A stretch of 64,000 nt of DNA from Deferribacter desulfuricans SSM1 (GTDB taxonomy: Bacteria; Chrysiogenota; Deferribacteres; Deferribacterales; Deferribacteraceae), in the NCBI RefSeq assembly GCF_000010985.1, contig NC_013940.1:186001-250000 (forward strand), read 5' to 3'. Of the stretch, positions 9,929-57,828 are shown in pieces. The translations under genes were made by a program, and so were the position numbers. How positions within the stretch are numbered: position 1 is the stretch's first letter; every line of letters starts with the position of its first letter. The notes beneath the pieces are model-generated. The model had not been told where the DNA came from, made no database searches, and was given only the letters and a program-made list of their open reading frames with translations.

Positions 9929-9950
9929 AGACCAATACTATAATATAACA

Positions 9951-22734: not shown

Positions 22735-23160
22735 TTAGGTAGGTGATGTAGTGGGTGTCTTCTGGGTTTCAATATATTGTTTGATAACCTCAAGCGGAGC
22801 TCCACCACAGGAACCTGCAAAATAGCTTGGAGACCATAAAGCGTTTTTCCAGTAATACTGCCTTAATTCAGGATGGATTTGTTTTAGCTTTCTGGAAGAA
22901 ACACCTTTTAGCGAATTTACCAGTTTTGAGACTGCCACCTTTGGCGGATAGTTTACAAGCAAATGGACATGGTCGCTTTCTCCATTTAATTCTATCAGTT
23001 CTGCCTCAAAATCTTGACAGACTTTGGCGAAGATTTCCTTTAAGGTTTCTAAGTGTTTCTTTTGAAATACGCTCTTTCTGTATTTAGTTACAAAGACCAA
23101 ATGCACATGCAGAAGAAAAACACAATGCCTACCAGTTCTAATTTTACTTGACTTTTCCAT
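22735..23160 (-). CDS. tnpA: TnpA HUH transposase, copy 2
   Basis: Identical protein to the 9503-9928 TnpA, with His64, His66 and Tyr129 intact. It is divergent from the TnpB gene of the same element. Confidence 0.97.
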   Translation of the reverse strand: MEKSSKIRTGRHCVFLLHVHLVFVTKYRKSVFQKKHLETLKEIFAKVCQDFEAELIELNGESDHVHLLVNYPPKVAVSKLVNSLKGVSSRKLKQIHPELRQYYWKNALWSPSYFAGSCGGAPLEVIKQYIETQKTPTTSPT

Positions 23161-23182
23161 AGACCAATACTATAATATAACA

Positions 23183-30804: not shown

Positions 30805-30862
30805 TTTAAAAAGCTAGCAGTAAAAATTATACTATATTATCATACCATTTCGTATTATATTT

Positions 30863-32206
30863 TTAAATTGGTTGTATCAACAATTCTTGTTTTTTTTTAA
30901 AAGTATTATTTTTTGTATTTTTTTGTTTATTATTTTGATTTTTATTTAAGAATTGAAGTAAATCATTAAAATCTTTAATTTTAATTGTATCCGAATTTCT
31001 ATATTTATGATAATACTCTTCTAAAGTTATTTTTAATGTATAATGATCAGCTATTACAAAATAATTTTTTTCAAAATTGGATATATATTGCTTCATAACT
31101 TCAAAAAATTTCTTACCCGCATCATCCATATCAAAACCATTATATAAATATATTTTAGAATATTTGTTTTTAAAGTTACTATATAGGTAATGTAGAAATC
31201 TTAATAAACCTTGTTTATTTGATACAGATAAAAATGAAATATACATAACATCTTTTGTTAAAAAATCTCTTTTTCGAAGCTCTTTGTTTTGTTTATATAA
31301 AGTACATATAGATAAAGTATCAATTATGCCTTCCGTGCAAAAAACAGACAATTGATTATTATTTAAATAACCTGAATTTTTTCTTGCAGTTGTTGTAAAA
31401 CCAAACCATTTACCTTTTACAGACCCCCTATTCCTAAAACGTTCTTCTTTTGCACAAGGAACAATTGCTCTTAAATTTAAATAATTATCATGAAAAAAAC
31501 CTGCATATTCAATATTTTTTGTTGATTTATAATAAACAACTTTTTTGTTTTCAATCAGATAATCAACTAAGGATTTATCAATATATCTCTGATTAATATA
31601 ATAGTCTTTAACTTTAGCTAGAATTTCTTTATCACTCTTACTATCACTTAACTCATGTAGAAATTTAAGCTTTTTAATTGTATTTATATATATTTTATCT
31701 TGTAAACTTTGTTCAGTGTTTTTTTCAACTTCTTCTGTTAATTCATTATATATCCTTAAACTTTCTTTAGGATCTTTTATTATTTTTTTCTCTTTTTTAA
31801 CTAATCTAACTGGCTTACCATAAGAGGTATTTTGATAATCTGTGTTATACGTTTCAGAATCTAATAAATATGGTGGTATTCTATTTCCTAATTTTTCAAC
31901 TAAAAAATTTATAGATTCTGATAATGAATAATTATGATACTTTTGTATAAAGTCAATTATTGTTCCACCTTCATGGGTAATTCCATTTACTGAGAAATCA
32001 TACCATACCCAAACACCATCAGATTTTTTACTTATGGCAAAAGATGGTGTTTTTTCATTACCAAAAGGAGTACGGCACATATAAGATTCGGAATTTAAAT
32101 AACTGTTTCTGATATCTTGAGGTGATATATAACCAAATTCTATTAAAAAATCTTTAAAGTTAATTTCTGTTTTTAAATAATCTAGTAATTTTTTATTATA
32201 TTTCAT
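30863..32206 (-). CDS. DnaG-like primase with zinc-less CHC2 region and TOPRIM
   Basis: The 447-residue product likely makes RNA primers for this replicon. The N-terminus follows the CHC2 fold (TPFGNEKTPSFAI, then WYDFSVNGITHEGGTIIDFIQKY, then SLSESINFL), but the zinc ligands of the usual C-P-F-H ... C-x2-C are replaced (Thr/Gly and Asp/Val). TOPRIM follows, with Glu292 in FCTEGIIDTLS and Asp359/Asp361/Asp362 in GFDMDDAGKKF, then IKDFNDLLQ. No helicase domain is fused, fitting the separate DnaB at 55951. It is convergent with the SWIM gene. Plasmid or phage origin is likely. Confidence 0.8.
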   Translation of the reverse strand: MKYNKKLLDYLKTEINFKDFLIEFGYISPQDIRNSYLNSESYMCRTPFGNEKTPSFAISKKSDGVWVWYDFSVNGITHEGGTIIDFIQKYHNYSLSESINFLVEKLGNRIPPYLLDSETYNTDYQNTSYGKPVRLVKKEKKIIKDPKESLRIYNELTEEVEKNTEQSLQDKIYINTIKKLKFLHELSDSKSDKEILAKVKDYYINQRYIDKSLVDYLIENKKVVYYKSTKNIEYAGFFHDNYLNLRAIVPCAKEERFRNRGSVKGKWFGFTTTARKNSGYLNNNQLSVFCTEGIIDTLSICTLYKQNKELRKRDFLTKDVMYISFLSVSNKQGLLRFLHYLYSNFKNKYSKIYLYNGFDMDDAGKKFFEVMKQYISNFEKNYFVIADHYTLKITLEEYYHKYRNSDTIKIKDFNDLLQFLNKNQNNKQKNTKNNTFKKKQELLIQPI

Positions 32207-34576: not shown

Positions 34577-37078
34577 ATGATAGAAAGAAAATCAAAAACT
34601 ATAAAAAATGATATAGTAGATATAATGAAACATAATTACATAGATTATGCTATGAGTGTAATTATAGGAAGATCACTACCAGATATTCGAGATGGATTAA
34701 AACCAGTCCAAAGAAGAATTTTATACGATATGTATCACGATTTACACAATACACATGAAAAACCGTATAAAAAATCTGCTAGAATTGTCGGTGATGTAAT
34801 AGGTAAATATCATCCCCATGGAGATGCAGCCGTTTATGATACAATAGTAAGAATGGCTCAAGATTTTGTGTTTAGGTATCCTCTAATCGATGGACAAGGT
34901 AATTTTGGCTCTATTGATGGAGATTCACCTGCAGCAATGCGTTATACTGAAATTCGTATGACTAAAATAGCAGAAGAAATGTTGAAAGACATAGACAAAG
35001 ATACTGTCGATTTTATACCTAACTATGATGGCTCCTTAAAAGAACCTACTGTATTACCTACCAAATTACCAAATTTACTAATTAATGGAACAAATGGTAT
35101 TGCAGTAGGTATGGCTACTAATATACCACCTCATAATTTAAAAGAAGTTATTAAAGCTTGTTTATATTTATTAAAAAATGAAAGAAGTAAATCTTATTTG
35201 AAAGAATTTTATGAAACAAACTCTGTAAAAGTTTCTGATGATATAATTAACCAAATACATAATAAAATAATGACTATTTTAAAAGCTCCTGATTTTCCAA
35301 CAGGGGGCATCATTATAAATAGCAAAGATATTCCTAAAATATATAGGAATGGAACAGGTAGTATAAAAATAAAAGCTAAAATAGAAGTAAATAAAGATCA
35401 AATAATTATTACTGAATTACCTTATATGGTTAATAAATCAGATTTGATTATTAAAATAGCAGATTTAAGTAAATCTAATAAAATCCAAGGAATTGCAGAT
35501 ATTAAGGATGAATCTACAAAAGATATAAGAATAGTAATAAAGCTTAGAAAAAAAACAGATCCTAATATTGTTTTGAATCAATTATATAAATATACACAAT
35601 TAACAACTACGTTTTCATGTAATTTTGTAGGTATATACAAAAACAAACCATACCAATTAAATATACTAGATTTATTATTTAATTTCTTATCATTTAGATT
35701 AGATATTATAAATAGAAGAACTCAGTTTTTATTAAGGAAAAATCAAAACAAACTACATAAACTGAAAGGTTTAAAAATTGCTGTAGAAAATATAGATAAT
35801 TTTGTAAAAATAATTAAAACAGCAAAAAATACTACAGATGCAACACAAAAATTAATGAAAAAATACAAATTGGATGACATACAGGTTAATGAAATACTTA
35901 ATATGAGATTACAAAGACTCACATCTTTAGAAATAGAGAAATTACTAAACGAATATCAAGAAACAAAAGAAAATATTCAAACTTACAAAGAAATCCTTAA
36001 TTCTTATGATAAACAAATTGAACTTATAATAAATGAATTACATGACTTACAAAAGAATTATTGTAAAAACGATAAACGTTTAACTAAACTGGAAGACGAA
36101 GATATAAGTTTCGATATAAAAAACCTTATACCAGATAATCCTGTTATTATTATTTATACAGATGATGGTTTTATCAAAAAAGAAAATATAAGCAAAGTAA
36201 CTAAAACAGGTAAAACAACTAATTTGCAGAAAAACGATAGTGCTAAATTCATTATTAACACAACAAATCATAAAAAACTTCTTCTGTTTACTGATACAGG
36301 GAAATTATATTATCTAAATGTTTATGATATTCCAGAAACTGGATCAGGAAATTCCAAAGGTACACATATAAGTAATTTAATAAAATTGAATACTAATGAC
36401 AAAATTGTACTAATTAGAACACAAATACATGAAAATGAGTATTCTAATTATGATATGGTATGTATTACAGAAAAAGGATTAGTTAAAAGAACTTCTTTAG
36501 AAGAATATAAAAATTCTAAAAATGGTTCCTTGGTATTAAAATTAAATTCAGACGATAAATTATTAAAAGTCTTTTTCATTAATAAACAAGAAGAAAATTA
36601 CTTACTAATGCTCTCTAAACAAAGCAAATATATTATTTTTAATATCAACCAAGTAAGAACTGTTGCTAGATTAGCAAAAGGTGTTGTTGGAATGCTCTTA
36701 AATAACGAAAATGACAAAATAGTTGATTGTGCTATTATTACAAAACCAATGTTAGAAAACCCAAATGAATATTTATTGTGTACTATTACTAATAAAGGTT
36801 TTATTAAATTAACACCTTTAGAAGAATATTCAGTTCAAAACAGAAAAACAAAAGGTTCTTATGTAATGAAAGTAACAAATAAAACTGGAGAACCTATTTT
36901 AGTACAAATTCTAGCTAAAAATTCAAAAACTAATAATTGTATTTTAATTACTAATACAGGACAATTAATTAAAATAGACATTAATAATATTAGCGTTACA
37001 AATAGAGTATCGACAGGACAACCAATAGAATATAAACTCGAACATAATAATTATATTGTCTCAGCAACATTTTTATAA
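34577..37078 (+). CDS. Type IIA DNA topoisomerase subunit A (GyrA/ParC type)
   Basis: The 833-residue DNA-cleaving partner of the 26270 protein. The catalytic Tyr123 is in AAMRYTE; the winged-helix region [11 protein letters not shown] and [13 protein letters not shown] are standard. A coiled-coil arm with [14 protein letters not shown] at its base is followed by six beta-pinwheel blades (for example [15 protein letters not shown]). The GyrA box (QRRGGKG) expected after the first blade strand is absent: the position reads [12 protein letters not shown]. Supercoiling may therefore be lost and topoisomerase-IV-like activity is favoured. Quinolone-pocket position 84 (E. coli Ser83) is Ala; Asp88 is kept. 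AAAGGAGG precedes the start. Confidence 0.95.
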
Positions 37079-41120: not shown

Positions 41121-41546
41121 TTAGGTAGGTGATGTAGTGGGTGTCTTCTGGGTTTCAATATATTGTTTGATAACCTCAAGCGGAGCTCCACCACAGGAAC
41201 CTGCAAAATAGCTTGGAGACCATAAAGCGTTTTTCCAGTAATACTGCCTTAATTCAGGATGGATTTGTTTTAGCTTTCTGGAAGAAACACCTTTTAGCGA
41301 ATTTACCAGTTTTGAGACTGCCACCTTTGGCGGATAGTTTACAAGCAAATGGACATGGTCGCTTTCTCCATTTAATTCTATCAGTTCTGCCTCAAAATCT
41401 TGACAGACTTTGGCGAAGATTTCCTTTAAGGTTTCTAAGTGTTTCTTTTGAAATACGCTCTTTCTGTATTTAGTTACAAAGACCAAATGCACATGCAGAA
41501 GAAAAACACAATGCCTACCAGTTCTAATTTTACTTGACTTTTCCAT
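41121..41546 (-). CDS. tnpA: TnpA HUH transposase, copy 3
   Basis: Identical protein to the 9503-9928 TnpA, catalytic residues intact. Confidence 0.97.
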   Translation of the reverse strand: MEKSSKIRTGRHCVFLLHVHLVFVTKYRKSVFQKKHLETLKEIFAKVCQDFEAELIELNGESDHVHLLVNYPPKVAVSKLVNSLKGVSSRKLKQIHPELRQYYWKNALWSPSYFAGSCGGAPLEVIKQYIETQKTPTTSPT

Positions 41547-41568
41547 AGACCAATACTATAATATAACA

Positions 41569-42900
41569 ATGATTACATGTCAAGCCTTTAAATTTAAACT
41601 CAAGACCAATGAAGAGTTAGAAAACAAGTTCGCCCAATTTGCCGGCTCTTGTAGGTTTGTATGGAATAAAGCTATTGCTTTAATAAAACAAAAGCTTGAT
41701 ATAAAAAAGGTAGATAAAATCATCAATATCCACTTGCCACAATATTACAAAAATACTGCTACTATACCTACCTATAACGAAATGGCGGGAATGCTTAAAT
41801 TATGGAAACAATCCGAAGAATACGCTTTCTTAAAAGAAGCACATTCTCAAATTCTACAACAAACCTTAAAGGATTTATACAAAGCCATAGACAGTGCTTT
41901 TACCAAAGGCAATGGTATATCTTTTCCAGACTTCAGGAAGAAAGGTAAATCGCCAGACAGCTTTAGATATCCTCAAGGCTTTAAGATAAATAACAATAGA
42001 ATATTTTTACCTAAAATAGGATGGGTTAGGTTTTATAAATCAAGAAACATAGTTGGCAAACCAAAGAATGTAACAGTTAAAAGATACGCCGATGGCTGGT
42101 ATATAAGCGTAGTTACCGAAAAAGACACATCAATTAAAGAAAATCTATCCAACCCCGTGGGTATAGATGTAGGTGTAAAAAAGATAATCACACTATCCAA
42201 CGGTTGTTACTTCGAGCCTCTTGATTTAAGTAAATATGAGAAAAAACTAATCAAACTCCAAAGGCAACTCTCGAGAAAACAACACCCTACCAAAAAAGGA
42301 GATAAGACACCGTTTTCTAATAATTACAAAAAACACCAAAGAAAAATAGCAAAGATGTGGCTTAAGATAGCAAATGTGAGAAACGATTACCTACATAAAA
42401 TAACAACAGCCATAGCCAAAAAACACGGCTTTGTGGCTGTAGAGAATTTAAAGGTTAAGAACCTAACCAAATCTGCAAAAGGCACAAAAGACAGCCCCGG
42501 ACGTAATGTAAAAGCTAAATCAGGCTTAAACAGAAGCATTCTTTCTCGAGCGTGGGGTAGGTTCTTTGAACTGCTTGAGTATAAACTCCAGAGAAATGGG
42601 GGGAAACTGGTTAGAGTTGACGCTAAAAACACCTCTATAACCTGTCCTCTATGTGATTACACTAATAAGGAAAACCGCAAAAACCAAGCGGTATTTGTAT
42701 GCAAAAAGTGTGGTTTTACGTCTAATGCTGATTTGGTAGGTGCGATAAATGTTTTAATGAGAGCGATGAGGAAGGAAAACCTTATAACCCTACCGCAGGG
42801 CTTGCGGGAAGTCACGCCTGTGGAGTATGCCAGAGAGTATACGCTGAAGCAGGAACCAGCGGGAAACCGTGAGGGATTACCGCTTCCATCGATAGCGTAG
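41569..42900 (+). CDS. tnpB: TnpB RNA-guided nuclease, copy 3
   Basis: Identical protein to the 9951-11282 TnpB, complete RuvC triad and zinc finger. The flank after its right end starts TTTTAAAAGATAGATT and would provide its guide. Confidence 0.97.
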   Translation: MITCQAFKFKLKTNEELENKFAQFAGSCRFVWNKAIALIKQKLDIKKVDKIINIHLPQYYKNTATIPTYNEMAGMLKLWKQSEEYAFLKEAHSQILQQTLKDLYKAIDSAFTKGNGISFPDFRKKGKSPDSFRYPQGFKINNNRIFLPKIGWVRFYKSRNIVGKPKNVTVKRYADGWYISVVTEKDTSIKENLSNPVGIDVGVKKIITLSNGCYFEPLDLSKYEKKLIKLQRQLSRKQHPTKKGDKTPFSNNYKKHQRKIAKMWLKIANVRNDYLHKITTAIAKKHGFVAVENLKVKNLTKSAKGTKDSPGRNVKAKSGLNRSILSRAWGRFFELLEYKLQRNGGKLVRVDAKNTSITCPLCDYTNKENRKNQAVFVCKKCGFTSNADLVGAINVLMRAMRKENLITLPQGLREVTPVEYAREYTLKQEPAGNREGLPLPSIA

Positions 42901-45193: not shown

Positions 45194-46361
45194 TATATTT
45201 TTGAAATATTTTTTCTGGATAATGGTAATAATATCCTTGAAAATAAGTATCAATATTATAGTTTTTATTAATCAAAAGTAAATTATCCATCATTTCTTGA
45301 TTTTCTATACCTTCAAAAATTAATTTGGCTTTAGTAGACTGTGCTAATTGACAAAAATGATTAAAAAGACTTTTTAAATATAAATTATTATGATCTAAAG
45401 TTAAAGATTGAACTAAATGCTTATCTATTTTAATTATATCAGGTTTAAGATCATTTATAATATTATAATTAAAAAAACCATTTCCAAAATCATCTAAAGC
45501 AATTAAGAAATCCAAATCTTTTCTTAGATTTGACACTTCTTTAATTATTTGATTATTAATTGTTTCGTATTCAACAAATTCTAAAACCAATTTTAAATTA
45601 GATTTTTTCCGTTCTATAAAATCTATAACATAAGCTAACAAATTAGAAATAATGTTTATATTTTTTGCTAAAAAATTTCTAGGAAATATATTAATATGCA
45701 AATACTTAAGACCAGGACATTGATTAATCAAGTTATCTAAATTCTCAAAAAGATAGCTCGCAACTAACTTAGTTACTTTTCTATCAAAATCAAATAGAAT
45801 TGAGTTACCTATTTCACGTATATCTTTGAAAAATTGACCTTTGTAATTATTAGGAATATCTAAAGATGATAAAAATTCTATACCTATTACATCTAAGTTT
45901 TTTAACAACATATCTTCTGAAAAATTTAATTTATAAATATATTGTTTGTTTAAAATCATATCTTTTGTCATATACAACGAACGTATTAAATTATATTGTA
46001 ATATACTTCTAATGTAATGCCAATTATTAGATGCTTGTACATTATTAAGTAAATTTAAATAATAGTCAGTATTATTTATAACTACTGGAGTTAAAAATAT
46101 ACTATAATTTTTTGTTTCTAATAAAACTTTATCAAATATTTCGTTAAAATGAACAAAATAATCATAATTGTTTTGATATTTTAAAACACATAAACTGTTA
46201 TAGTTCGTAGCAGTATTCTTAATAGGATAAATTTCATAAACAAAATTTTTAAATAAATTATAATTTTCTATTAAATAGAAATAAGGAATATCAGAAATAA
46301 AATTAAAATATATATGATCTAAATCAGTAATAGGTTTATCCACAGTTGTATTTATAACCAT
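45186..46361 (-). CDS. EAL-domain cyclic di-GMP phosphodiesterase
   Basis: The 391-residue product has an EAL domain over about residues 170-391 with most catalytic positions visible: Glu in GIEFLSS (EAL position), Asn in INIFPRNF, Glu in LEFVEYE, Asp-Asp in ALDDFGNG, Lys in IIKIDK, Glu in FEGIEN and Gln in YFQGYY. It should degrade cyclic di-GMP and oppose the two GGDEF proteins. The N-terminal half is unrecognised and has no membrane helix. AGAGG lies just before the start. A perfect DnaA-box sequence (46336-46344) occurs inside its first codons. Confidence 0.88.
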   Translation of the reverse strand: MVINTTVDKPITDLDHIYFNFISDIPYFYLIENYNLFKNFVYEIYPIKNTATNYNSLCVLKYQNNYDYFVHFNEIFDKVLLETKNYSIFLTPVVINNTDYYLNLLNNVQASNNWHYIRSILQYNLIRSLYMTKDMILNKQYIYKLNFSEDMLLKNLDVIGIEFLSSLDIPNNYKGQFFKDIREIGNSILFDFDRKVTKLVASYLFENLDNLINQCPGLKYLHINIFPRNFLAKNINIISNLLAYVIDFIERKKSNLKLVLEFVEYETINNQIIKEVSNLRKDLDFLIALDDFGNGFFNYNIINDLKPDIIKIDKHLVQSLTLDHNNLYLKSLFNHFCQLAQSTKAKLIFEGIENQEMMDNLLLINKNYNIDTYFQGYYYHYPEKIFQKYIK

Positions 46362-46682
46362 ATAACCTCTTTAAAAATTATATTTTTGTTATACACTAAC
46401 CTATAATATTATATAACTAATCGTATCAAAAAATGATAATTTTTTTTATAATTTTTATAAAAATAATCTTTATTTATTGATTGATAATTTAATTGTTATT
46501 ATTATAACTTTATTTAGTTTGTGATTAATAATTAACATTCTAAAAATAATAACATATAGGTTTATATAGAAATACAAAATCTCTCACTTAATTTATATTT
46601 ATAATAATTTAACCTACAAAATATAACACTGTTTCACGTGAAACAAAATTTCTAACAACAGCAATAAATTATAATTTATCAA
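46362..46682. other. Intergenic region with parS
   Basis: AT-rich 321-base spacer between two minus-strand genes. It holds the parS site (listed separately). Apart from that I see nothing distinctive. Confidence 0.7.
46630..46645. promoter_or_regulatory. parS: parS partition site
   Basis: TGTTTCACGTGAAACA, a perfect 16-bp palindrome identical to the classical chromosomal-type parS bound by ParB. Only one copy was found. It lies about 4.5 kb left of parB (51123) and 40 bases beyond the stop of the Rep gene, on the other side of the origin region. ParB loaded here would spread across the origin. Confidence 0.93.
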
Positions 46683-47351
46683 TTATTTTTTAGATTTATA
46701 TAAAATAATATATTCCACTTTTCTATATTTATTACGCTCATATTTATAATTAATTTTATGACTTAATAAATCAGTTTGATTAATTTCATTGATACTTTTT
46801 TCTATAATAAATCTACAGAAATTCCTGTTGTTTAAAAAAACCGAATTATCTAATGTTAAAAGCTTTCTTAAAGTAGATAATTTGTACTTTATAACTGCCC
46901 TATTCTTAAATATAACTTTTGTCAGTAAATAGAATCTAAAGCTATAAAAGCTTTTAAATGAATTAAGAACTAAAACAGGTATTTCGATATTATAATTATA
47001 TTTAGTTACAATCTCATGGATCTTTTTGTTAACATAATAAAGAATATAATCCTTTCTTATAAAAATACCGTAAAAAATCTTTTTACTATTGTCTTTATAA
47101 TCTAATCTAATGTGTTCTAATGGCCTTTGATAGTTTTTTAGATAACGTAAAGATTCCTTTTTAAATTTATATCTATTCAATAATGTGGTTTTAGGCAATT
47201 TATCACTATTATCAATACTATTGAAATAATTATCAATCAAACATAACAGTAATTTATAAGCATTAATCGACTTAACAAAAACTTCCCTATTATCACCAGA
47301 TTTAAACCCTAGATTGTAAATAAATAAAGTTGAAACTTTCAATCTATCCAT
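46683..47351 (-). CDS. Plasmid replication initiator of the Rep_3 (RepB) type
   Basis: The 222-residue product has a C-terminal half that fits the second winged-helix domain of Rep_3 initiators: SFYSFRFYLLTKVIF, KYKLSTLRKLLTL, FLNNRNFCRFIIEKSINEIN, then KYERNKYRKVEYIILY. The family pattern is 's.ya.rLYe.l', 'l.elr..l', 'f...vl..ai.EIN', 'k.gRkv..i.f'. The first half could be the WH1 domain. Rep_3 proteins bind repeated sites in the origin. The gene is divergent from the DnaA-like gene across the repeat region. Its own promoter is so close that the mRNA may start at or next to the ATG. Confidence 0.65.
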   Translation of the reverse strand: MDRLKVSTLFIYNLGFKSGDNREVFVKSINAYKLLLCLIDNYFNSIDNSDKLPKTTLLNRYKFKKESLRYLKNYQRPLEHIRLDYKDNSKKIFYGIFIRKDYILYYVNKKIHEIVTKYNYNIEIPVLVLNSFKSFYSFRFYLLTKVIFKNRAVIKYKLSTLRKLLTLDNSVFLNNRNFCRFIIEKSINEINQTDLLSHKINYKYERNKYRKVEYIILYKSKK

Positions 47352-47356
47352 ATCTA

Positions 47357-47385
47357 ATTATTAATAAGACTTCATTAAATGTCAA
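47357..47385 (-). promoter_or_regulatory. Promoter of the rep gene (possibly leaderless transcript)
   Basis: On the minus strand, TTGACA (47385-47380), 17 bases, AATAAT (47362-47357). The start ATG (47351) lies six bases after the -10, so transcription would begin about at the start codon. No ribosome-binding site is visible before the ATG. Confidence 0.55.
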
Positions 47386-47540
47386 TAATTAATCAATTAT
47401 TAATTATCTACTTATAAATATTAATTAATTACAATTATAATATTATTAATGAAATAACAACTAAGCTAAAAGATTGGCTTTAGTTATTTTTTAAAATAAT
47501 TTTAAAACAAAAACCTAAAATTACACTCTTATTTTTTTAT

Positions 47541-47566
47541 TTATTCACATATTTACGTGTGAATAA
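47541..47566. promoter_or_regulatory. Inverted pair of DnaA-box-like sites
   Basis: TTATTCACA (47541-47549) and TGTGAATAA (47558-47566) form an inverted pair eight bases apart. Each differs by one base from the TTATCCACA DnaA consensus. Confidence 0.6.
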
Positions 47567-47693
47567 GAAAATTTGATTACTAAATAAGTCAAGTTATTTT
47601 TATTTATAAATATAATTAATAAGCTATAACATACCTAAGAATGCATAAGAAGTATCTATTCATAGATGAATAAACATATATATTCACGGATAA

Positions 47694-47702
47694 TTTTCCA
47701 CA
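47694..47702. promoter_or_regulatory. DnaA-box-like site
   Basis: TTTTCCACA, one mismatch from the DnaA consensus, just left of the first TTGCAT box. Confidence 0.5.
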
Positions 47703-47719
47703 AACAAGGAAAAATTATA

Positions 47720-47878
47720 TTGCATAACTATTATATTATTTGCATATAGTAAATAAAACATTGCATATATTATGTACAAAACTACATAAAAGAATTTCAT
47801 ACTTATTGCATTTAATACTTTTTATTTCCATATGCAATAAACGCAAAAATATATGCAATATAAAAAATATATATGCAA
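47720..47878. repeat. Facing arrays of 20-21-bp-spaced iterons
   Basis: Three direct TTGCAT boxes at 47720, 47740 and 47761 (spacing 20 and 21) face three direct ATGCAA boxes at 47832, 47853 and 47873 (spacing 21 and 20). One further TTGCAT at 47806 lies 26 bases before the reverse set. Two-helical-turn spacing is typical of plasmid iterons. Confidence 0.85.
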
Positions 47879-47928
47879 TAGATCTAAAAAGGAAATAATT
47901 ACTTAATAAAAAAGAAAAACAAGCAAAC

Positions 47929-47937
47929 TTATCCACA
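47929..47937. promoter_or_regulatory. Consensus DnaA box
   Basis: TTATCCACA, exact consensus, between the two clusters of TTGCAT boxes. The same 9-mer also occurs at 46336 and 814 inside genes, so a single hit alone proves little. Confidence 0.55.
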
Positions 47938-48030
47938 TATACACAGCAATATAATATTATTGTGTTTAAAAAACAAAATACAATAAAACAAAAACAATTA
48001 AACAACATTCAAAACAGTGCAAAAATAATA

Positions 48031-48571
48031 TTGCATTTGCTTTAAAAATATTATTAATGCAAATAAAAACATTGTATTTGACAATATATGTATAACATAG
48101 ACACTATATATACAAACTTAATTACATAAAATTTTATAATAAATCTCTTAAGTAATTAAAATGCAAATAGATACAAAACAAAAAATATTTGCATATACTT
48201 ATAGAAAAATCTAAATGCAAAAAAATAAATTGCATATAGATATAAATGCAAGATTATTTATTGCATATACAGTATAATCAATATCAACTGCAAACAAAAA
48301 ATAATCTATGCAATAAAAATATATGAAGTTAACTATTGCATTTATTCGATAATATCTTTAAATGCAATAAATTATATTGCATTTGCTTATAATTTAACTA
48401 CTCTGAATTTAATAAAAATTAACAAATACAATTTAAAAATTTAAATAATTATTTCACACCTTTTGCATATATACTGCATATTTTAGTTAATGCAATAAAA
48501 TATATTGCATTATTATATTAATCAACCTTATGCAATTGCATACAAACTATATGCAAAATTATATATTGCAT
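48031..48571. repeat. Cluster of paired inverted TTGCAT/ATGCAA boxes
   Basis: Nineteen boxes. Five pairs read ATGCAA-N9-TTGCAT (starts 48215, 48246, 48362, 48490, 48551). Three read TTGCAT-N20-ATGCAA (starts 48031, 48189, 48336; a fourth is at 47806). Two read ATGCAA-N22-TTGCAT (48161, 48308). One is a contiguous palindrome, ATGCAATTGCAT (48530). The last pair abuts the promoter of the dnaA-like gene. Confidence 0.85.
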
Positions 48572-48578
48572 AAAAAAC

Positions 48579-48606
48579 TTGTTTTTTAGAATTTTTATGC
48601 TATACT
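48579..48606 (+). promoter_or_regulatory. Promoter of the dnaA-like gene
   Basis: TTGTTT (48579-48584), 16 bases, TATACT (48601-48606) preceded by TGC, an extended -10. The last TTGCAT box (48566-48571) lies just upstream of the -35, so the initiator bound there could regulate its own gene. Confidence 0.6.
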
Positions 48607-48636
48607 TTACTAAAATAACATATAACAGGTATAGCT

Positions 48637-50244
48637 ATGAATGAAAATATAGAAAATACACCTGAAATACCTGAAATTATCAAAATAAAATGCGAAGGAA
48701 TAGAAGCTTTATTTCAAAAATATATAACAAAACTCGCAGATCCTCTAAATGATGAAAGAAATAAAAATAATTTCAGTATTATGGATATTTCTGCTTTAGC
48801 TAACATTAAAATTGATTGCATATATAAACAAGAAAACAATGAAGAAATCTATAATCTTATACTACATATAAATCCAACAATATATAAAAAACTAAATAAT
48901 GACACTGAAAAGAAAAAAAGAATTATCGATATAATAGAATTTATCTTAAATAGAATTAAACAAGCATTTAATATTGAAAAAATAAACTTTCAAATTGAAC
49001 AACAAATTTCCTATGAACAAATATTAGAGCCTAAAAATACTTTAATCATAAATGGTATAAAGGGAACCCCTCAATATACATTTGATAATTTTATCGTAGA
49101 TACTAGTAATGAATTAGCATATCACTATATTAAAAATATTGCCGAAAACAAACTACGAGATGGACTAACAGTTTTATTATATGGTCCTACTGGTTTAGGT
49201 AAATCTCATTTATTACATGCAATGATAAATGAAATGAAACAACATTATGAAGGAGTAGTAAATTTTTATACAGGAGAAATCTTTTTTAGCGAAGTAATGG
49301 ATGCATTTCGTAAAAAAGAAACATACATATTTAGAGAACAACAAATTGAAGCTGATATGCTAATTATAGACGACTTACATTTTGCTTTAAAAAAAGCAAA
49401 TGAAGGATTTATTAGTTTTTATAACAATATATTAAATGAACGAATTAACAGACAGAAATGGACACTACTTACAACTGATAGACACCCTGAAGATTATATT
49501 TTTGATATAGTTAATGATACTGTAAAAGAATACTATGAAACACTTATTCAAAATAATACTGATATTCAAACCTTAAACTTATATATTCCAGTAAGAGATG
49601 GAACTACAATAAAATACAAACTCCATGCAAGTTTTGTATCAAGACTTTTAAGTGGAATGGTATTAGAAATTGTAAAACCAACCTTTATGGCAAAAAAAAG
49701 ATTTTTCTGGAGTAGATTATCAAGTAAATATTTAAATAAAGACTATAGATTAACAGAAGAAGAAAATAGACTAATAGATATTTTTATATCTGAAGTTTCT
49801 AGTGATTTTAGATATCTAAATGGTATAGTTAATAAAGTTGGTTTTCGTATTTTAAATGAAAAAATAAGTCTTAAAGAAGCTTTAATTCAATCAATAAAAG
49901 ATTACTCTAACTTTGAAATTGATGATATTATAGTTAACAGACATGTTGAAGAAAAAAGTCTAAAATTAATTATAGAAAAATTATTAAATGGCTTACCTTA
50001 TACTTATGAAAGATTATTTTCAACAAAGCGAATTAATCCAGAACTAAAGAAAATAAGAGATCTAATTTTTTATATACTAATGGAAAAATATTTTTATAAA
50101 CAGAAACAGTTAGCTCAAGTTTTCAATACAGATATAACCACAATCTGGAGAGCCAGAAAAAATATTGAAAAAATAATAGAAAAACAACAAGACGAAGAAA
50201 CTATCAAACTTTATAATAAATTAATAAATAATGTATATAATTAA
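48637..50244 (+). CDS. DnaA-like AAA+ replication initiator with divergent DNA-recognition loop
   Basis: The 535-residue product has a central part that follows DnaA domain III closely: YTFDNFIVDTSNELAYHY, Walker A GPTGLGKS (183-190), Walker B MLIIDDLHFA (Asp245-Asp246), LLTTDRHPEDY and the Arg-bearing SRLLSGMVLEI. The C-terminus is a domain-IV-like HTH, QLAQVFNTDITTIWRARKNI. The signature D-H-T-T-V-x-H-A of ordinary DnaA is changed to D499-I-T-T-I-W-R-A, so another box than TTATCCACA is likely recognised. About 60 extra residues lie between the sensor regions. It should open the adjacent origin. It is followed by parAB on the same strand. Confidence 0.88.
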   Translation: MNENIENTPEIPEIIKIKCEGIEALFQKYITKLADPLNDERNKNNFSIMDISALANIKIDCIYKQENNEEIYNLILHINPTIYKKLNNDTEKKKRIIDIIEFILNRIKQAFNIEKINFQIEQQISYEQILEPKNTLIINGIKGTPQYTFDNFIVDTSNELAYHYIKNIAENKLRDGLTVLLYGPTGLGKSHLLHAMINEMKQHYEGVVNFYTGEIFFSEVMDAFRKKETYIFREQQIEADMLIIDDLHFALKKANEGFISFYNNILNERINRQKWTLLTTDRHPEDYIFDIVNDTVKEYYETLIQNNTDIQTLNLYIPVRDGTTIKYKLHASFVSRLLSGMVLEIVKPTFMAKKRFFWSRLSSKYLNKDYRLTEEENRLIDIFISEVSSDFRYLNGIVNKVGFRILNEKISLKEALIQSIKDYSNFEIDDIIVNRHVEEKSLKLIIEKLLNGLPYTYERLFSTKRINPELKKIRDLIFYILMEKYFYKQKQLAQVFNTDITTIWRARKNIEKIIEKQQDEETIKLYNKLINNVYN

Positions 50245-50263: not shown

Positions 50264-51121
50264 ATGGAAAAATTTGTACTTTCAGTAGCGTCACATAAGG
50301 GTGGGGTAGGGAAGACAACTTTATGTTTTGAATTACCATTTTTATTATTAGAGAGAGGTTATAAAAATATACTAATAATAGATCTTGATCCTCAAGCTAA
50401 TTTATCTGAAAAGTTTATTGATGACGAAGAAGTGAAAAGTAAACTATCAGTATCTGAATTTTTAAATTATGTAAATGAACATGAATTTACAAAAGATATG
50501 ATGATAACAGCTTTACAATTATTGGATGAAATAATTATAAAATACCCTTTTAAAAAAGACATTATTAGTGTTATCGGTTCTAACTTAACTTTAAGCAAAG
50601 TAAAATTAAAAATGCAAAATAACACAAATATTATTTTCAGAATTAAAGAAATTACGTCTATATTTTTTAAGGATTATGATGCTGTAATTATTGATTTACC
50701 ACCTAGTGTTGAATTTTTAACTATACTGGCTTTATCCATATCCACTCATTTTATTATTCCAACTACCTTAGATAGAGATTCTATCCAGGGTATTGATGAC
50801 ATATTATCCTTATATAATGAAATTCATAGATTTTATAATAAAAATCTTTCATTTGTAGGAATTATACCAACACTCGTAGATAATAGAACTTTAATAGATA
50901 AACATTTAAAAACAGCATTAAGAGAAGGCTATGCTAATAAAGTATTTCAATCCCAAATTAGTAGATCAACCAAAATAAGAGAATCGCTATCTTTTAAAAA
51001 ATATATTGGTGAAATGTATTCTCAAAACGAAAAAATAATCCAGGAATTAAATCTTTTTACTGATGAATTATTAACTAAAATAAAAAATAGTAATAAAAAT
51101 AGAGTAGGGCAGGTCAGTTAA
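50264..51121 (+). CDS. parA: ParA partition ATPase
   Basis: The 285-residue product is a deviant-Walker ParA/MinD-type ATPase that moves replicon copies apart. The P-loop is SHKGGVGKTTL with signature Lys12 and Lys17; Walker A' is IIDLDPQANLS; Walker B is AVIIDLPPSV. There is no N-terminal HTH, so it is unlikely to repress its own operon directly (the type Ib/chromosomal pattern). GAGAGGA precedes the ATG. It lies 19 bases after the dnaA-like gene and one base before parB, so one transcript from the origin promoter is likely. Confidence 0.95.
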   Translation: MEKFVLSVASHKGGVGKTTLCFELPFLLLERGYKNILIIDLDPQANLSEKFIDDEEVKSKLSVSEFLNYVNEHEFTKDMMITALQLLDEIIIKYPFKKDIISVIGSNLTLSKVKLKMQNNTNIIFRIKEITSIFFKDYDAVIIDLPPSVEFLTILALSISTHFIIPTTLDRDSIQGIDDILSLYNEIHRFYNKNLSFVGIIPTLVDNRTLIDKHLKTALREGYANKVFQSQISRSTKIRESLSFKKYIGEMYSQNEKIIQELNLFTDELLTKIKNSNKNRVGQVS

Positions 51122-51122
51122 A

Positions 51123-52109
51123 ATGAGTAAGAAGAAAAAATATGAAGATTTGCTGAAAGATAAATCTTTATTTAAAAAAAATACAGCTTCTGGTTTGTTA
51201 TCAAAAGATGCTAATTATAGAATTACCTTTGAAGATAAAAAATATTTTCAAGATGATATACCTATAGCTAAGATAAATATAAAACCACAAGTAAGACAAA
51301 AAATAGATACAGACTCTGAAAGCTATAGAGAGCTTGTAGAGAGTATTAGAAGAAGAGGGGTATTACAACCTATAATTGTAGTAAAAAGCGTTGAGAATGG
51401 AGAATACGAACTTGTAAGTGGAGAAAGAAGAGTAACCGCAGCTAAAGAATGTAGATATGAATTTATACCAGCTGTAATTTTTGAAGATTTAACGGAATCT
51501 GACATATTAGAAATTCAATTAATAGAAAATTTACAAAGAGAAGATTTAACCACATTTGAAAAAGCATTAGGATTAAAAACTTTAGCTGAAAAAATGTTTA
51601 AAGTGGACACTATTGATGAGCTAATTAAATTGTTATCAAATAAATTATTTTCCAAAAATAATAACTCTACTTCCACAGTGGAAGTGGACACAAATTATTC
51701 AATAAATTTACGTCAAATATATCGTTATGTGTTATTATTTGCTTTTCCTGAAGATTGTATTGAATTAGTTAAAAATAGTTCTAAATTTCCTGTAAGAGTT
51801 TTTGATATACTTTATAAATATAAAAATCATCCTGAAATAACTAATATTTTTAAATTAATAGCTGAAGGTAAATTAAACTCGACAAATTTAAATACATTTT
51901 TAAATAAATTAGATTCAAATATAAATAAAGAAGAACCAGCTAAAAAGAAAAGAATTAGAATTTATAACAAACTTAAAAAAATTGATACTAACTTTGATGA
52001 ACTATTAAAAGATGATTTAATTGTTAAAGATAAAAATAAAGCTGAAGAAATTATTAAACAAATAGAATATAAATTAAATCGTTTAAAAGAGAAATTATTC
52101 TCAAAATAA
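51123..52109 (+). CDS. parB: ParB partition protein with an insert in its HTH
   Basis: The 328-residue product is a CTP-dependent parS-binding clamp. The N-terminal domain has VRQKID, ESIRRRGVLQPIIV, SGERRVTAA (Glu101-Arg-Arg103) and IQLIENLQREDLTTFEKALG, all standard. The HTH region is split: between the first helix (IDELIKLLSNK) and the recognition helix (INLRQIYRYVLLFAFP) lies a low-complexity insert of about 18 residues (174-192, FSKNNNSTSTVEVDTNY). This insert is encoded by a perfect DNA palindrome that recurs after the gene. The C-terminal part is the dimerisation domain. ParA stop and ParB start are one base apart. Confidence 0.93.
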   Translation: MSKKKKYEDLLKDKSLFKKNTASGLLSKDANYRITFEDKKYFQDDIPIAKINIKPQVRQKIDTDSESYRELVESIRRRGVLQPIIVVKSVENGEYELVSGERRVTAAKECRYEFIPAVIFEDLTESDILEIQLIENLQREDLTTFEKALGLKTLAEKMFKVDTIDELIKLLSNKLFSKNNNSTSTVEVDTNYSINLRQIYRYVLLFAFPEDCIELVKNSSKFPVRVFDILYKYKNHPEITNIFKLIAEGKLNSTNLNTFLNKLDSNINKEEPAKKKRIRIYNKLKKIDTNFDELLKDDLIVKDKNKAEEIIKQIEYKLNRLKEKLFSK

Positions 52110-52246
52110 AATTCTCTTAAATTATCTTAAAATATAGTTACTAAAATATGATTATTAAGTGGACACTTTAAAAAATCGTATAATTTTTTATTAATAAAAG
52201 AAATTTTAACTATCATATTGGTTACTTCCACAGTGGAAGTGGACAC
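51601..52246. repeat. AAGTGGACAC repeats and a repeated 17-bp palindrome in and after parB
   Basis: AAGTGGACAC occurs at 51601, 51682, 52157 and 52237, all in the same orientation. The perfect palindrome ACTTCCACAGTGGAAGT occurs at 51669-51685 (inside parB) and 52224-52240 (downstream); both copies run directly into an AAGTGGACAC repeat. These are much richer in G+C than the surrounding DNA. They could be a second binding site for ParB or another replicon protein, or remnants of a small mobile sequence. Confidence 0.85.
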
Positions 52247-52475
52247 TTTTTCTAATTAAATTAAAATAAGTAAAAATATATTAATTTATATTATAAAGTT
52301 GTATTAAAAAATATTAAATATATCAATATATTATAAGTGTTTTTACTTAAAAATACAGTATATTATATGAAAAATAAGAAAATAAAAACAAAAATAAAAA
52401 TATATGAATAATAATAAAATTAAAAAACAGATATTTAAAATTTGTATAGAGTAAAATAAAGTAAGGAGGTGCAGT

Positions 52476-52765: not shown

Positions 52766-55372
52766 TTAGCTACATTTGCTATACCCACAATCTTTACAGG
52801 TATAGCAACCTCTGATCCCAGATTTTTCAATATTAGTACTACCACAATTATCGCATTCTTCTAAAATATCTGATTCATATTCATTAAACTTATAATTTTC
52901 ATTATTTTCTGGACCGTTTGTTCCATTGCCATTTGTAAACTGAATAATTTTTTCTGGTTGATTAAATTTAATATCAACTATTGGTTTTGCATATTCATAT
53001 ACATGTTTAAAGAAATCCTTGTATCTTTTATGTAAACTTAATACATATCCAATTGCATCTGGTAATGATTTAATCATTTTAGATTGATCATCTTCTAATA
53101 TGTAATTATAGGTTGGTGTCTGACCAGAAATTCCAGATAAAGAATCTATAATTGATTCTGGACTTAATCCTACTCGTAACCACTGAGATATTAACCTTCC
53201 TAAAGCTTCTGCTTGTGCTGATGTATTACTACCTGATTTACCTGTAGTAATTATACATTCAAAAGGATTACCTTTATTATCATAATTAATAGTAATTAAT
53301 ACTTTAGAAGGACCAATTTTAATTTCTCTTGTTAATCCAAATAGTATTTGTGGACGTTCTTTTTTTATTAAAACGTTTGGTATTTGAACTTCAGTATTTG
53401 TATTTTCTTGACTAATTTCCGAAGATGTATGTTTTTTTGGTTGTTCAATAACTGTTGTTTTATTCTTTTGGGATTTATAATATTCTAAATAAGCCTTCTC
53501 ATCATAATTAAATTTCTTTGTAAATAAATCTATATCTATAGTGTTTAATACTTGTACACCTTTACTTTTATCACGATAAACAGTAATTCCTTTACAGTTT
53601 AGTTCCATGGCTTTTAAATAGATATTTGCAATATCCTCTTCTGTAGCAGTTTCAGGTAAATTAATAGTCTTACTTACAGCTGATTCAACATATTCTTGCC
53701 ATTTGCTTTGAATTTTAAGATGCCAATCAGGTGAAATATCCATAGCTGTTTTAACATATTCTGGTATATTATTTTTATCAACAAAATGCTTTACAGAATC
53801 ATTCCATACAATTCTTGTTCCAAACGAATCCTCTCTTATATAACCTAAAGAGAATAGGGGCTCTATACCTGAAGAACATCCAGCTATTAAAGAAATTGTT
53901 CCTGTTGGAGCTATACATGTAAGTGAAGCATTTCTTCTTTTTATATATTTATCTTTAATATATGTATATTCTTTTCTGCTTATTTTATTTTCTTTGTATA
54001 ATTTTTTTACTTTTTCTAATAATTTATCTGCTAAAGGAAATACACCGTATTGTTCGCCATATTTTATGCTTGCTTCTTCTGTTTTTTCTTTTAATACAGA
54101 ACCAACTGAATCTATCATTGTAAGTGCTTCATTACTATCATATGATATACCCATTTTAATAAGAGCATCAGCAAAACCCATTACACCTAAACCTATCTTC
54201 CTTGTTTCTTCTACAGCTTCAGTAATTTGAGGTAGAGGATAGTTATTAATATCAATTACATCATCCAAAAAATGAGTGCAATCTTCCACTACTTTAGCAA
54301 AAGCATCTATATCAAAATAAGCATTATTATGAGCATCAGATTTAACAAATTTAGCTAAGTTAATAGATCCTAAGTTGCAAGCTTCATTAGGAAAAAGTGG
54401 TTGTTCGCCACATGGATTAGTTGCTGTTATATTGCCTTTAATATATTTTAAATAATTGTATTTATTTATAGTATCAATATTCAATAATCCTGGGTCTCCA
54501 CATATCCATGCTGATTTAACTATTTCATCAAATAATTGTTTAGCCCTAACTTTTTTAATAACTTTACCAGTATTAGGTTCTTTTAGTTCCCATTCTTCAT
54601 CGTTCTTAATAGCTTCTAAAAATTTATTTGTAATACCTACAGAAATATTGAAATTAGTTAAGGTTTTATTGTCTCTTTTAATTTTAATAAATTCTTCAAT
54701 ATCAGGATGATCTACATTTAAGATACCCATGTTAGCACCACGTCTAACTCCACCTTGTTTTACATGCTCTGTTGCACTATTGTAAATTTGCATGAAAGAC
54801 AATGCACCACTTGATTCACCTTTTGTACTTGAAACCAGAGCACCTTTTTGACGTAATTTTGAAAAGTTAAATCCAGTACCACCACCTGATTTATGTATTA
54901 AAGCAGTATTTTTTAGCGTTTCAAAAATACTTTCCATGCTGTCATCTATATCAAGTACAAAACACGCAGAATAACACATATTATTACTATCAGCATTTAC
55001 TAATAACGGAGAATTAGGCATAAAAATACCCTGAGCCATTAAGTTGAAGTAAGTTACATATTTTTTTATAAAATTAATATCCGTTACATAATTATTTAAA
55101 TTATGATATTTAACAAATTTTGCTGATGCTACTTTGAAAGCTACTGTGTGAAAAACGTCTAAAAAAGATTTATAATAATCTTTTTTATTTCTTTTTTGAA
55201 ATATACCTTCAAATAAAGAATCTGTAGTACTGCCAAGATCTAATTTCTTATGTAATAACGAATAATACTCATTTACATGCTTATTAATATATTCCCAAAA
55301 TGCAACTCTGTTTAGTAAATATTCATCTGGAGACAAAACATCTTTTTTTGAGTCAATAACATTGCTTCTCAT
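52766..55372 (-). CDS. nrdJ: Class II (adenosylcobalamin-dependent) ribonucleotide reductase
   Basis: The 868-residue enzyme reduces ribonucleotides to deoxyribonucleotides without oxygen-dependent radicals. It has the large-subunit barrel motifs: [16 protein letters not shown] with the redox Cys, [26 protein letters not shown], the active-site loop [21 protein letters not shown], and [23 protein letters not shown]. The C-terminus has the Cys-rich ribbon typical of NrdJ (CDNCG then [13 protein letters not shown]), which recycles the active site. Length is normal and no intein is present. It lies 37 bases after the 55410 gene. On a replicon it would supply dNTPs for its own copying. Confidence 0.95.
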
Positions 55373-55950: not shown

Positions 55951-57828
55951 TTAAAAAGAGTCAAATATATCAGTTATTTCAACTTCATCTATACCATCGC
56001 TATTAGCTTTATTATTATCTTGTTCTACTACCTTAATCTTAAACATATCATCATTATTATCATTATCATTATTACTAATTTCTAATTCTTCGTTACTATT
56101 TATATTTGACTCTTCTTCATTATTTTTAATCATATTAATATTCGTATTTTCGGTTATATTATTTAAATTTGAGTTATTATCTTGTATGTTTATTTCAGAT
56201 TCTGGTAATAAATTTATTGTAGTATATAAATCATGAGGAACTTCTGTTTCAACTTTATTTTTCTTTGGTCTACCACGCCTTTTTTTAGTAACATTATTTT
56301 TTATTTGTTCTTCTTTTATTTTAATTTCTTCTTCCGAAAGATTTTGATCTAATTCTTGAGTTTCTTGAGTTTGTTTTAAGCTGTACTCTTCTACTGTTTT
56401 GTCTTCAATAGTAAGCTCTTCCTTAAATTCAATTGTTTTAGTGTAATAATCTATATAAGCAATACACTCCTTATTCTTCTTACCATGTCTAACTTTACCT
56501 GATTTATATCTCATTAAATTCTGTTCATAATCTTCAGGAGACTGTGATAACAATAAAACAAAATCACTACGCATAATTATAATTGAACTATCAGCTACTG
56601 AATCTAACTCAGTTTTACCTGTTTTCCATACACCTTTGTTAGTCTGGTGAGCTGTTATTACAGGTGTTCTGAAATATTTAGCCATCCTTTTCAAACCTCT
56701 AGCTATATCACCTACATTACTGTAAATATTAGAACCACCAGATAACTCTGCTAACGCACCTATATAATCGATGATAATAAACTCAATAGGGTGTTCTTCA
56801 TGGATATTATTATATTCTTCGATAAATTCCATAATATCTTCAACTGTAAATTGAGATTTTCTCGCACCTTTATTAATAGCTTCATGAATTATTAAGTCAT
56901 TTCCGTATTTTATCTGTATTTCTTTTAATTTTTTTAAATAACCTTGAGGGTTTTCTCTTATTTCATATTCTGTTTTTTGATTAATAATTTGGGTAATATA
57001 TAACAAAATATCATTATATTCTTCTTCTAATGTAAAAAAAACTACTGTTTTACCACTAGCGAAAGCTTTAGCTGCAATATTTGATAGGGTAGTAGTTTTA
57101 CCTGTACCAGTTGGAGCTACAATGGTTGTTAATGAACTCCTGGTTACTCCACCACCAAATAACCTATCAGCTACTTCAAAATTTGTAGGGATCCTTGTTT
57201 TACTATCAAATAGATCATTAGAAAAAACCAAATCCTTTTCATTAATTTTACTTAATTCGAAAGAATTAATATTAATTTTAAATACTTGTTTATGTAATAA
57301 ACTTACTTCATTTAAAAGCTTTCGTATTTTTTCTTGATCTGGTACAGGTTTGACAATTTCATTATTAATTTGTTCTAAAGCTTTTTTTATTTGTTCCTGT
57401 TCTAAATATTCTTCTATAACTTTAATAAATTCATCAATATCTATTTCTTTATTGATAATTAATTTGTATTCTTCTTCTATTTGTTTAATATAAATATCAA
57501 AATAAGGAATAACACTTTCTAAAAATTCATTTATATCTGTTATATTATGTATTTGTCTAAAATAATTAAAATATTTACTTTTTAATAATATATCAGGATT
57601 AGATTTTAAATAATTTATAAGATCCATCATAGTTATTTTGAACTTTTCAATTTCTATTTTTTCAGAAACATTCTTATATAAAAGTGATAATGCATAAATA
57701 AAAAATTGATATGATGGATGCACTTTTAAATTTAGGAAAGGTAAACCATATTTTTTTAATATATTTTTACTGTTTTTATATATTATAATCGCAACTAATC
57801 TATTAAGATTCAAAGAAAGATAATTCAT
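55951..57828 (-). CDS. DnaB-type replicative helicase with AT-hook and acidic tail
   Basis: The 625-residue hexameric helicase moves on single-stranded DNA at the fork. The RecA-like core has Walker A APTGTGKTT (238-246), FFTLEEE, Walker B FIIIDYIGAL (Asp354) and VITAHQTNKG, as in DnaB. The N-terminal domain is divergent and the linker helix lies at about 165-185. After about residue 475 comes an unusual tail: Glu/Gln-rich helices, an AT-hook RRGRPKKNK (517-525), then about 90 acidic, Asn-rich residues. The hook would prefer AT-rich DNA such as this replicon. GGGGG precedes the start. A DnaG-like primase is encoded at 30863. Confidence 0.88.
   Translation of the reverse strand: MNYLSLNLNRLVAIIIYKNSKNILKKYGLPFLNLKVHPSYQFFIYALSLLYKNVSEKIEIEKFKITMMDLINYLKSNPDILLKSKYFNYFRQIHNITDINEFLESVIPYFDIYIKQIEEEYKLIINKEIDIDEFIKVIEEYLEQEQIKKALEQINNEIVKPVPDQEKIRKLLNEVSLLHKQVFKININSFELSKINEKDLVFSNDLFDSKTRIPTNFEVADRLFGGGVTRSSLTTIVAPTGTGKTTTLSNIAAKAFASGKTVVFFTLEEEYNDILLYITQIINQKTEYEIRENPQGYLKKLKEIQIKYGNDLIIHEAINKGARKSQFTVEDIMEFIEEYNNIHEEHPIEFIIIDYIGALAELSGGSNIYSNVGDIARGLKRMAKYFRTPVITAHQTNKGVWKTGKTELDSVADSSIIIMRSDFVLLLSQSPEDYEQNLMRYKSGKVRHGKKNKECIAYIDYYTKTIEFKEELTIEDKTVEEYSLKQTQETQELDQNLSEEEIKIKEEQIKNNVTKKRRGRPKKNKVETEVPHDLYTTINLLPESEINIQDNNSNLNNITENTNINMIKNNEEESNINSNEELEISNNDNDNNDDMFKIKVVEQDNNKANSDGIDEVEITDIFDSF

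Follow-up and report, generated by a model that had tools for sequence, protein, structure and literature searches.

We analyzed a locus at about 234 kb on the plasmid of the deep-sea bacterium Deferribacter desulfuricans SSM1, where a gene for a protein like DnaA, which starts chromosome replication, lies beside a dense array of short DNA boxes. The plasmid comprises 308,544 bp and the chromosome 2,234,389 bp, as published (PMC6896113), for a genome total of 2,542,933 bases. The window, meaning the whole stretch of DNA that we analyzed, is the 64,000 nucleotides from plasmid position 186001 to 250000; unless the plasmid or another locus is named, coordinates are those of the window. From left to right, the locus carries an EAL-domain gene, a parS site, a Rep_3-like open reading frame (ORF) on the minus strand, an intergenic region, and genes for the DnaA-like protein, ParA, and ParB, all on the plus strand (Table 1). 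The intergenic region (47352 to 48636) is AT-rich and 1.29 kb long, and the DnaA-like gene is the first of a presumed dnaA-like-parA-parB operon. The original prediction placed two ORFs on opposite strands at either side of a box region, and both were found there, with lengths of 222 and 535 amino acids (aa).

The 535-aa product matched Bac_DnaA (PF00308) at 98.8 bits (cut-off 23) and scored 135.1 bits against the NCBIfam equivalog TIGR00362, under its cut-off of 343.9. In a profile comparison, this protein and its homologue from a second Deferribacterota plasmid, pCALNI01 of Calditerrivibrio, aligned with 18 chromosomal DnaAs of the phylum at an E value of 1.2e-27 over residues 139 to 521, which make up domains III and IV. 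The 18 are a subset of 29 chromosomal DnaA loci, from which a filter requiring a DnaA-type loop excluded 11. The protein retains Walker A K178, Walker B D235, the arginine finger R285, and sensor II R334 (E. coli numbering), in agreement with the Walker motifs and domain III landmarks that had been predicted, and its domain IV reads DITTIWRA, again as predicted, where the host's chromosomal DnaA has DHSTVLHS in the same register. DnaA contacts bases through positions 399, 423, 432 to 435, and 438 to 439 (PMC5043019). The changes at DNA-reading positions are R432T, H434I, L438W, and H439R; D433, T435, and T436 are retained. A reading of the 29 loci that dropped the loop filter (22 were parsed and 7 read by eye) showed R432 and H434 in all 29, L438 in 26 (K in 3), and H439 in 24 (Y in 3, N in 2), and none had T, I, W, or R at the respective positions. 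The C terminus of the window protein gave no match to PF08299 (domain IV); it lacks the D-H-S/T-T signature, though the region can be aligned. Judged from these comparisons, the protein is a DnaA paralogue with a changed domain IV reading surface and intact ATPase and arginine-finger residues.

The intergenic region contains 26 copies of TTGCAT/ATGCAA where the rest of the plasmid predicts 0.69, and TTGCAT forms the top-scoring hexamer cluster of the whole 308-kb plasmid. Among the 25 gaps between neighboring boxes, those between direct neighbors measure 20, 21, 21, and 20 bp, plus 45, 86, and 104 bp, and those between inverted neighbors fall at 15 to 16 bp (n = 7) and 25 to 28 bp (n = 8), plus 6, 47, and 158 bp. 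Measured against a period of 10.5 bp, pairs in direct orientation tend to share a phase (mean vector 0.68) and those in inverted orientation to be offset by half a turn (0.65 and 0.78). The resulting phase score of 33.4 was reached by none of 5000 arrays in which every gap between boxes was jittered by up to 5 bp (null mean 3.4, standard deviation 4.0). The six core bases alone are fixed, being fixed through the choice of boxes, and the flanks carry at most about 0.5 bit, apart from a C that is part of the partner box. The array is thus a set of helically phased boxes directly upstream of the DnaA-like gene. We also considered reading TTGCAT in reverse as a DnaA box altered at one position (WWATGCAAT compared to TTATNCACA), and dropped this idea because, by our own estimate, such a match is too easily met by chance.

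The left part of the intergenic region also holds boxes of the type TTATNCACA, which we take to be the host DnaA box. Three of the 16 exact copies on the plasmid lie at 47541, 47558, and 47929, bearing out the prediction of host-type boxes on this side. If one mismatch is allowed, the stretch from 47.5 to 48.0 kb has the plasmid's peak density of DnaA-box-like sites, at 7 sites in 500 bp where the mean is 0.86; the runner-up elsewhere has 6. No cluster of exact boxes was found in the 40 kb scanned for the host chromosomal oriC, and with one mismatch the 25 kb around the junction never exceeded 4 sites in 500 bp (reached near 1.2 to 1.4 kb of the chromosomal contig C1; mean 0.8), which is why we treat the host box as an assumption. 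A 60-bp segment between the Rep_3-like gene and the first host-type boxes is the least stable of its length within 46360 to 48640 and exceeds the plasmid's 99.5th percentile by nearest-neighbor energy, making it a candidate unwinding element.

We searched 50 genomes of the phylum with the DnaA-like protein, and every genome gave a match. Only the window plasmid and the genome with pCALNI01 gave one that begins ahead of domain III and extends into domain IV; the other matches listed span at most about residues 111 to 290. The contig in that second genome was recognized as pCALNI01 because position and sequence agree fully with it. The pCALNI01 homologue (WP_013447284.1, annotated as DnaA/Hda family) is the reciprocal best match within these 50 genomes, with 29% identity, and its gene is likewise followed by parA and parB. 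Directly upstream of it, 427 bp contain 8 copies of AACTAAC (0.03 expected), in an array of the box AAACTAAC. Including near-copies picked out by eye, we counted 11 boxes (locus L019) in two opposed head-to-tail sets with a pitch of 9 to 12 bp inside each: a minus set at 19573, 19585, 19596, and 19607, and a plus set at 19645, 19654, 19664, 19676, 19687, and 19699, with an outlier at 19763. E. coli oriC likewise has opposed head-to-tail sets of DnaA boxes (PMC10316083). The homologue's loop reads ISKVSAHS, with positions 432 to 435, 438, and 439 all altered, and its PF08299 score of 21.9 bits is below the cut-off of 31.5. Another initiator was not found on pCALNI01 among the annotated genes (PLSDB gene table, which is incomplete) or among three unannotated ORFs that we checked, which are AAA-ATPase-like or PDDEXK. 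A Rep_3 gene is absent from the annotated genes, and PF01051 was unmatched in that genome, though this profile also misses the Rep_3-like protein of the window.

Two loop and box pairs are in hand, DITTIWRA with TTGCAT and ISKVSAHS with AAACTAAC. The original prediction held that the protein had switched to TTGCAT boxes and formed a dedicated initiator, and proposed checking whether homologues always adjoin TTGCAT clusters. They do not: the pCALNI01 homologue adjoins a different box, an outcome that the prediction itself had named as refuting. The parA-parB operon, the parS, the repeat module at parB, and a GC skew that indicates an origin elsewhere were all absent from the prediction. The switch to TTGCAT does not stand as worded, and the finding becomes one of an own loop and an own box for each plasmid copy; a dedicated initiator with dedicated boxes gains support from the second plasmid's own array and own loop.

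We lean toward reading the locus as an oriC-like cassette on a megaplasmid, in which a putative DnaA-derived initiator adjoins an array of boxes specific to itself, with parA and parB downstream in the same direction; it may be a secondary or recently adopted origin. The DnaA-like protein has probably been re-tuned to read the adjacent TTGCAT boxes. We favor it as the reader of the array because on both plasmids the array directly precedes its gene, Rep_3 was not found in the second, and the opposed sets of pCALNI01 resemble E. coli oriC. In the mechanism that we propose, ATP-bound protomers would use domain IV to bind the boxes, line up on one side of the double helix, melt a nearby AT-rich stretch, and load a helicase, as chromosomal DnaA does at oriC. 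The plasmid may in this way start its own copying independently of the host, and because the boxes differ from those of host DnaA, it could time its own initiation.

Table 1. Features of the locus, with coordinates in the window.
Feature	Position	Strand	Basis or remark
parS GTTTCACGTGAAAC, canonical	46631..46644		Single exact copy on plasmid; 2 more in genome, both chromosomal
Rep_3-like initiator gene, 222 aa, weak assignment	46683..47351	-	Rep3_C match
Candidate unwinding element, 60 bp	47398..47457		Nearest-neighbor energy
Inverted pair of exact host-type DnaA boxes TTATTCACA, 8 bp between	47541..47566		Exact match
Array of 26 TTGCAT/ATGCAA boxes, common helical phase	47720..48571		Hexamer count and phase test
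Exact host-type DnaA box TTATCCACA, within TTGCAT array	47929..47937	+	Exact match
DnaA-like AAA+ putative initiator, 535 aa	48637..50244	+	Bac_DnaA match, profile comparison
Codons of changed domain IV recognition loop DITTIWRA, residues 499 to 506	50131..50154	+	Alignment
ParA, next gene of presumed operon, 19-bp gap	50264..51121	+	ORF and family match
ParB, diverged helix-turn-helix, without GKSRSAVANT-type motif of chromosomal-type ParBs	51123..52109	+	Family match and alignment
Repeat module 1 inside parB, AAGTGGACACT - spacer - TACTTCCACAGTGGAAGTGGACAC, candidate ParB centromere	51601..51691		Repeat search
Repeat module 2, 47 bp past parB stop, same motifs, near-equal spacing, unrelated spacer	52157..52249		Repeat search

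Compared to chromosomal DnaA and oriC (TIGR00362; PF00308 plus PF08299), the window system is alike in that domains III and IV align end to end, the Walker A and B, arginine finger, and sensor II residues are present, and a box cluster lies beside the gene. It differs in its TTGCAT boxes, its changed domain IV reading positions, its plasmid location, and the parAB genes that follow. Plasmid DnaA-like modules are already a known kind, given that a parA and dnaA-like region permits replication of Rickettsia shuttle vectors (PMC3244465), and the Rickettsiales modules share with ours a plasmid-borne DnaA-like gene accompanied by ParA-type genes. On a plasmid of Candidatus Bandiella numerosa (L068:5821-7281), the DnaA-like gene lies near ParB and MipZ, and its product, unlike the window protein, has a canonical domain IV (RDHSTILYY; PF08299 at 79.4 bits), with no comparable box cluster found upstream; the Rickettsia protein itself lay outside this comparison. 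Plasmid location alone therefore yields neither the changed loop nor the boxes. Thermotoga maritima DnaA, whose loop in our alignment is RSHPVVVDS, uses the non-canonical box ACCTACCAC (PMC10316083) and so resembles the window system in pairing a changed loop with a changed box, differing in that box and in being chromosomal; re-specification is thus known for chromosomes too.

Wider searches gave 79 matches to the DnaA-like protein among 72,556 plasmid records at an E value of 0.01 or less. Among the 60 listed, the Calditerrivibrio match had the widest coverage (60%, others at most 53%), and many of the others are annotated as DnaA or IstB. Among 50,697 phage records, 35 matched, the widest (61% coverage) being an unannotated 6.8-kb record. 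Scans of viral contigs and genome contigs confirmed no further homologue, a negative that is not decisive because pCALNI01 itself was not recovered even though one of the search peptides occurs in its protein.

The minus-strand ORF had been called a Rep_3-type protein, a family of initiators built from two winged-helix domains, Rep3_N and Rep3_C. An initiator-type gene does face the DnaA-like gene from that strand, and its family assignment is weak because it matches Rep3_C alone and near the cut-off (24.0 bits, cut-off 21.1), Rep3_N (PF01051) has no match anywhere in its own genome, and a single match emerged from the 72,556 plasmid records, a 'replication initiation protein' with 37% identity over 70 aa (E value 2e-3). 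Its AlphaFold model, with a mean predicted local distance difference test score (pLDDT) of 31.2, is too poor for use. From 47340 to 47730 there is one two-copy direct repeat only (82% alike), and TTGCAT triplets spaced at 20 to 21 bp lie just beyond. The Rep_3-like protein and the host-type boxes on the left could serve the DnaA-like replicon as a helper module, or they could be left over from an older replicon that fused with it.

The plasmid ParB has a ParB_N domain and lacks the helix-turn-helix (HTH) motif common to nine aligned chromosomal-type ParBs. Each of the two repeat modules at parB has the perfect 24-bp repeat TACTTCCACAGTGGAAGTGGACAC, with a second GTGGACAC 80 to 81 bp upstream (81 and 80 bp between the GTGGACAC copies), and four of the five plasmid copies of GTGGACAC lie within these modules. 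Within the genome, the near-palindrome CTTCCACAGTGGAAG is confined to these modules, also when one mismatch is allowed. In module 1, the first part and the spacer form an insertion relative to chromosomal-type ParBs, and the 24-bp repeat reaches the start of the HTH. These repeats make the modules a candidate centromere, one of them written inside its own parB gene. Host ParB, for its part, may act on the plasmid through the canonical parS beside rep.

Two alternatives concern what reads the array. The TTGCAT boxes could be iterons of the Rep_3-like protein, with the DnaA-like gene as a helper. Iterons are about 20 bp long and lie next to a Rep_3 gene; the two TTGCAT triplets have an iteron-like spacing of 20 to 21 bp, and the Rep_3-like gene faces the array. 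However, a fixed core of only 6 bp is unlike an iteron, the orientation of the boxes is mixed, and pCALNI01 has its array with no Rep_3 gene that we could find; we consider this alternative very improbable. The main rival as to the reader is the plasmid ParB, for which the array would be a centromere, or an origin and centromere combined, leaving the DnaA-like protein a lesser role. It draws on the position of both arrays upstream of a dnaA-like-parA-parB set, on the diverged HTH of a ParB that may not read canonical parS, and on the cisII/cisMP repeats of Deinococcus radiodurans, which lie upstream of parAB, bind DnaA and ParB, and serve as ori and parS (PMC7671480). That system differs in that host DnaA binds there, and no plasmid-borne initiator is known from it (PMC7671480). 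Against this rival, the two GTGGACAC modules in and just after parB are the better centromere candidate of the window plasmid, so that there is less need for the array to fill that role, and the opposed box sets of pCALNI01 look like those of E. coli oriC; in the parAB stretch of pCALNI01, however, we found no comparable repeat module. We judge a ParB-read array to be unlikely.

A further alternative is that the locus is a non-working origin, the true origin lying near 308 kb/0 and the cassette being a replicon that was captured or retired, or else a region for autoregulation and copy control. Skew measures weigh against the oriC-like cassette here. Total GC skew over the whole plasmid is lowest at 306 kb and highest at 153 kb, and intergenic skew is so at 308,231 and 154,184, respectively. 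Third-position GC skew (GC3), regressed on gene strand and replichore, gives a best axis of 0/156 kb with a residual of 442 to 448 against a null of 680, and an origin at 232 to 236 kb, with 661 to 668, is hardly better than the null; third-position TA skew agrees with the 0/156 kb axis. The signal is clean and nearly antipodal, with the long-term origin near 306 to 308 kb/0, 74 kb from the locus, and the terminus at about 153 to 156 kb. IS200/IS605 copies with the same protein sequences could have moved plasmid segments. The skew point (plasmid 308.2 kb/0; L016:18155-18544 plus L004:1-548) is a 0.9-kb intergenic region with divergent flanks and an IS200/IS605 copy, where we found no DnaA-box cluster and no box array. 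None of the five flanking ORFs has a replication family in Pfam; two of them (542 and 955 aa) have no family at all, so an initiator of an unrecognized type is possible there. The locus at 234 kb, on the other hand, holds boxes and a parS as well as initiator genes and parAB whose reading frames are open, and we think it improbable that it is no origin. The cassette is a newer or secondary origin unless the plasmid initiates mainly without it; our confidence in the oriC-like cassette is modest because the skew origin 74 kb away has no explanation.

Other observations also count against that cassette. Six TTGCAT gaps (6, 45, 47, 86, 104, and 158 bp) fall outside the main spacing classes. In the DnaA-like protein, R281 is replaced by S, the R399 equivalent is ambiguous (kept in one alignment, shifted by one in another), and the AlphaFold model is unusable (mean pLDDT 42.6); Foldseek on that poor model gave no match at an E value of 0.001 or less and was not used. 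Covariation of loop and box is indistinguishable from plain divergence because only two members are known, and the ParB HTH too differs between the two plasmids. For pCALNI01, GC3 skew with gene strand modelled gives its array no support as an origin. The detrended total skew of that plasmid is lowest at 30,835, close to the array, and we did not use it since the gene-strand-corrected GC3 disagrees.

Elsewhere in the window are gyrB (26270 to 28201) and gyrA (34577 to 37078; a second copy beside the chromosomal one), together with genes for a DnaG-type zinc-finger protein (30863 to 32206), a DnaB-type helicase (55951 to 57828), and ribonucleotide reductase (52766 to 55372). The plasmid further encodes a phage-like DNA polymerase of 1576 aa and has an ORF that we named topoisomerase I-like by eye. 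We considered a jumbo-phage origin of the plasmid; among nine chosen proteins, PHROGs gave matches to DNA polymerase and primase and none to a structural protein. Four IS200/IS605 TnpA/TnpB pairs have identical protein sequences by eye (9503 to 11282, 22735 to 24514, 41121 to 42900, and L004:549-2328). The copies at 9.5 and 41.1 kb are each followed by an ORF starting MSCGWWRDK, which suggests insertion into reading frames. A scan of the whole window found no tRNA and no Rfam match, and a promoter scan, which returned 29 promoter-like sites compared to 44.1 in shuffled sequences, was not used.

In the titles and abstract beginnings of the literature that we searched, we found nothing on the initiator of the D. 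desulfuricans plasmid or of pCALNI01, and we did not meet the combination of a plasmid DnaA, its own phased boxes, parAB behind it, and a different pair on each plasmid. We see even chances that a DnaA lineage left the chromosome, settled before plasmid parAB, and, no longer tied to the host's DnaA boxes, rewrote its loop along with its box on each plasmid; the natural pairs so formed would not cross-react with host DnaA. Few protein-DNA pairs in bacteria are as conserved as DnaA and its box, and since both partners are essential and the box serves at many sites, it is difficult to study how the pair changes. A DnaA encoded on a plasmid beside an array of its own would be a natural experiment in re-specification, in which the residues that set DnaA-box specificity become directly testable by swaps. 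If our reading is true, it would provide an orthogonal initiator and origin pair for synthetic replicons, and it would account for the ability of a large replicon that has gyrase, primase-like, and DnaB-like genes of its own to time its replication apart from that of its host.

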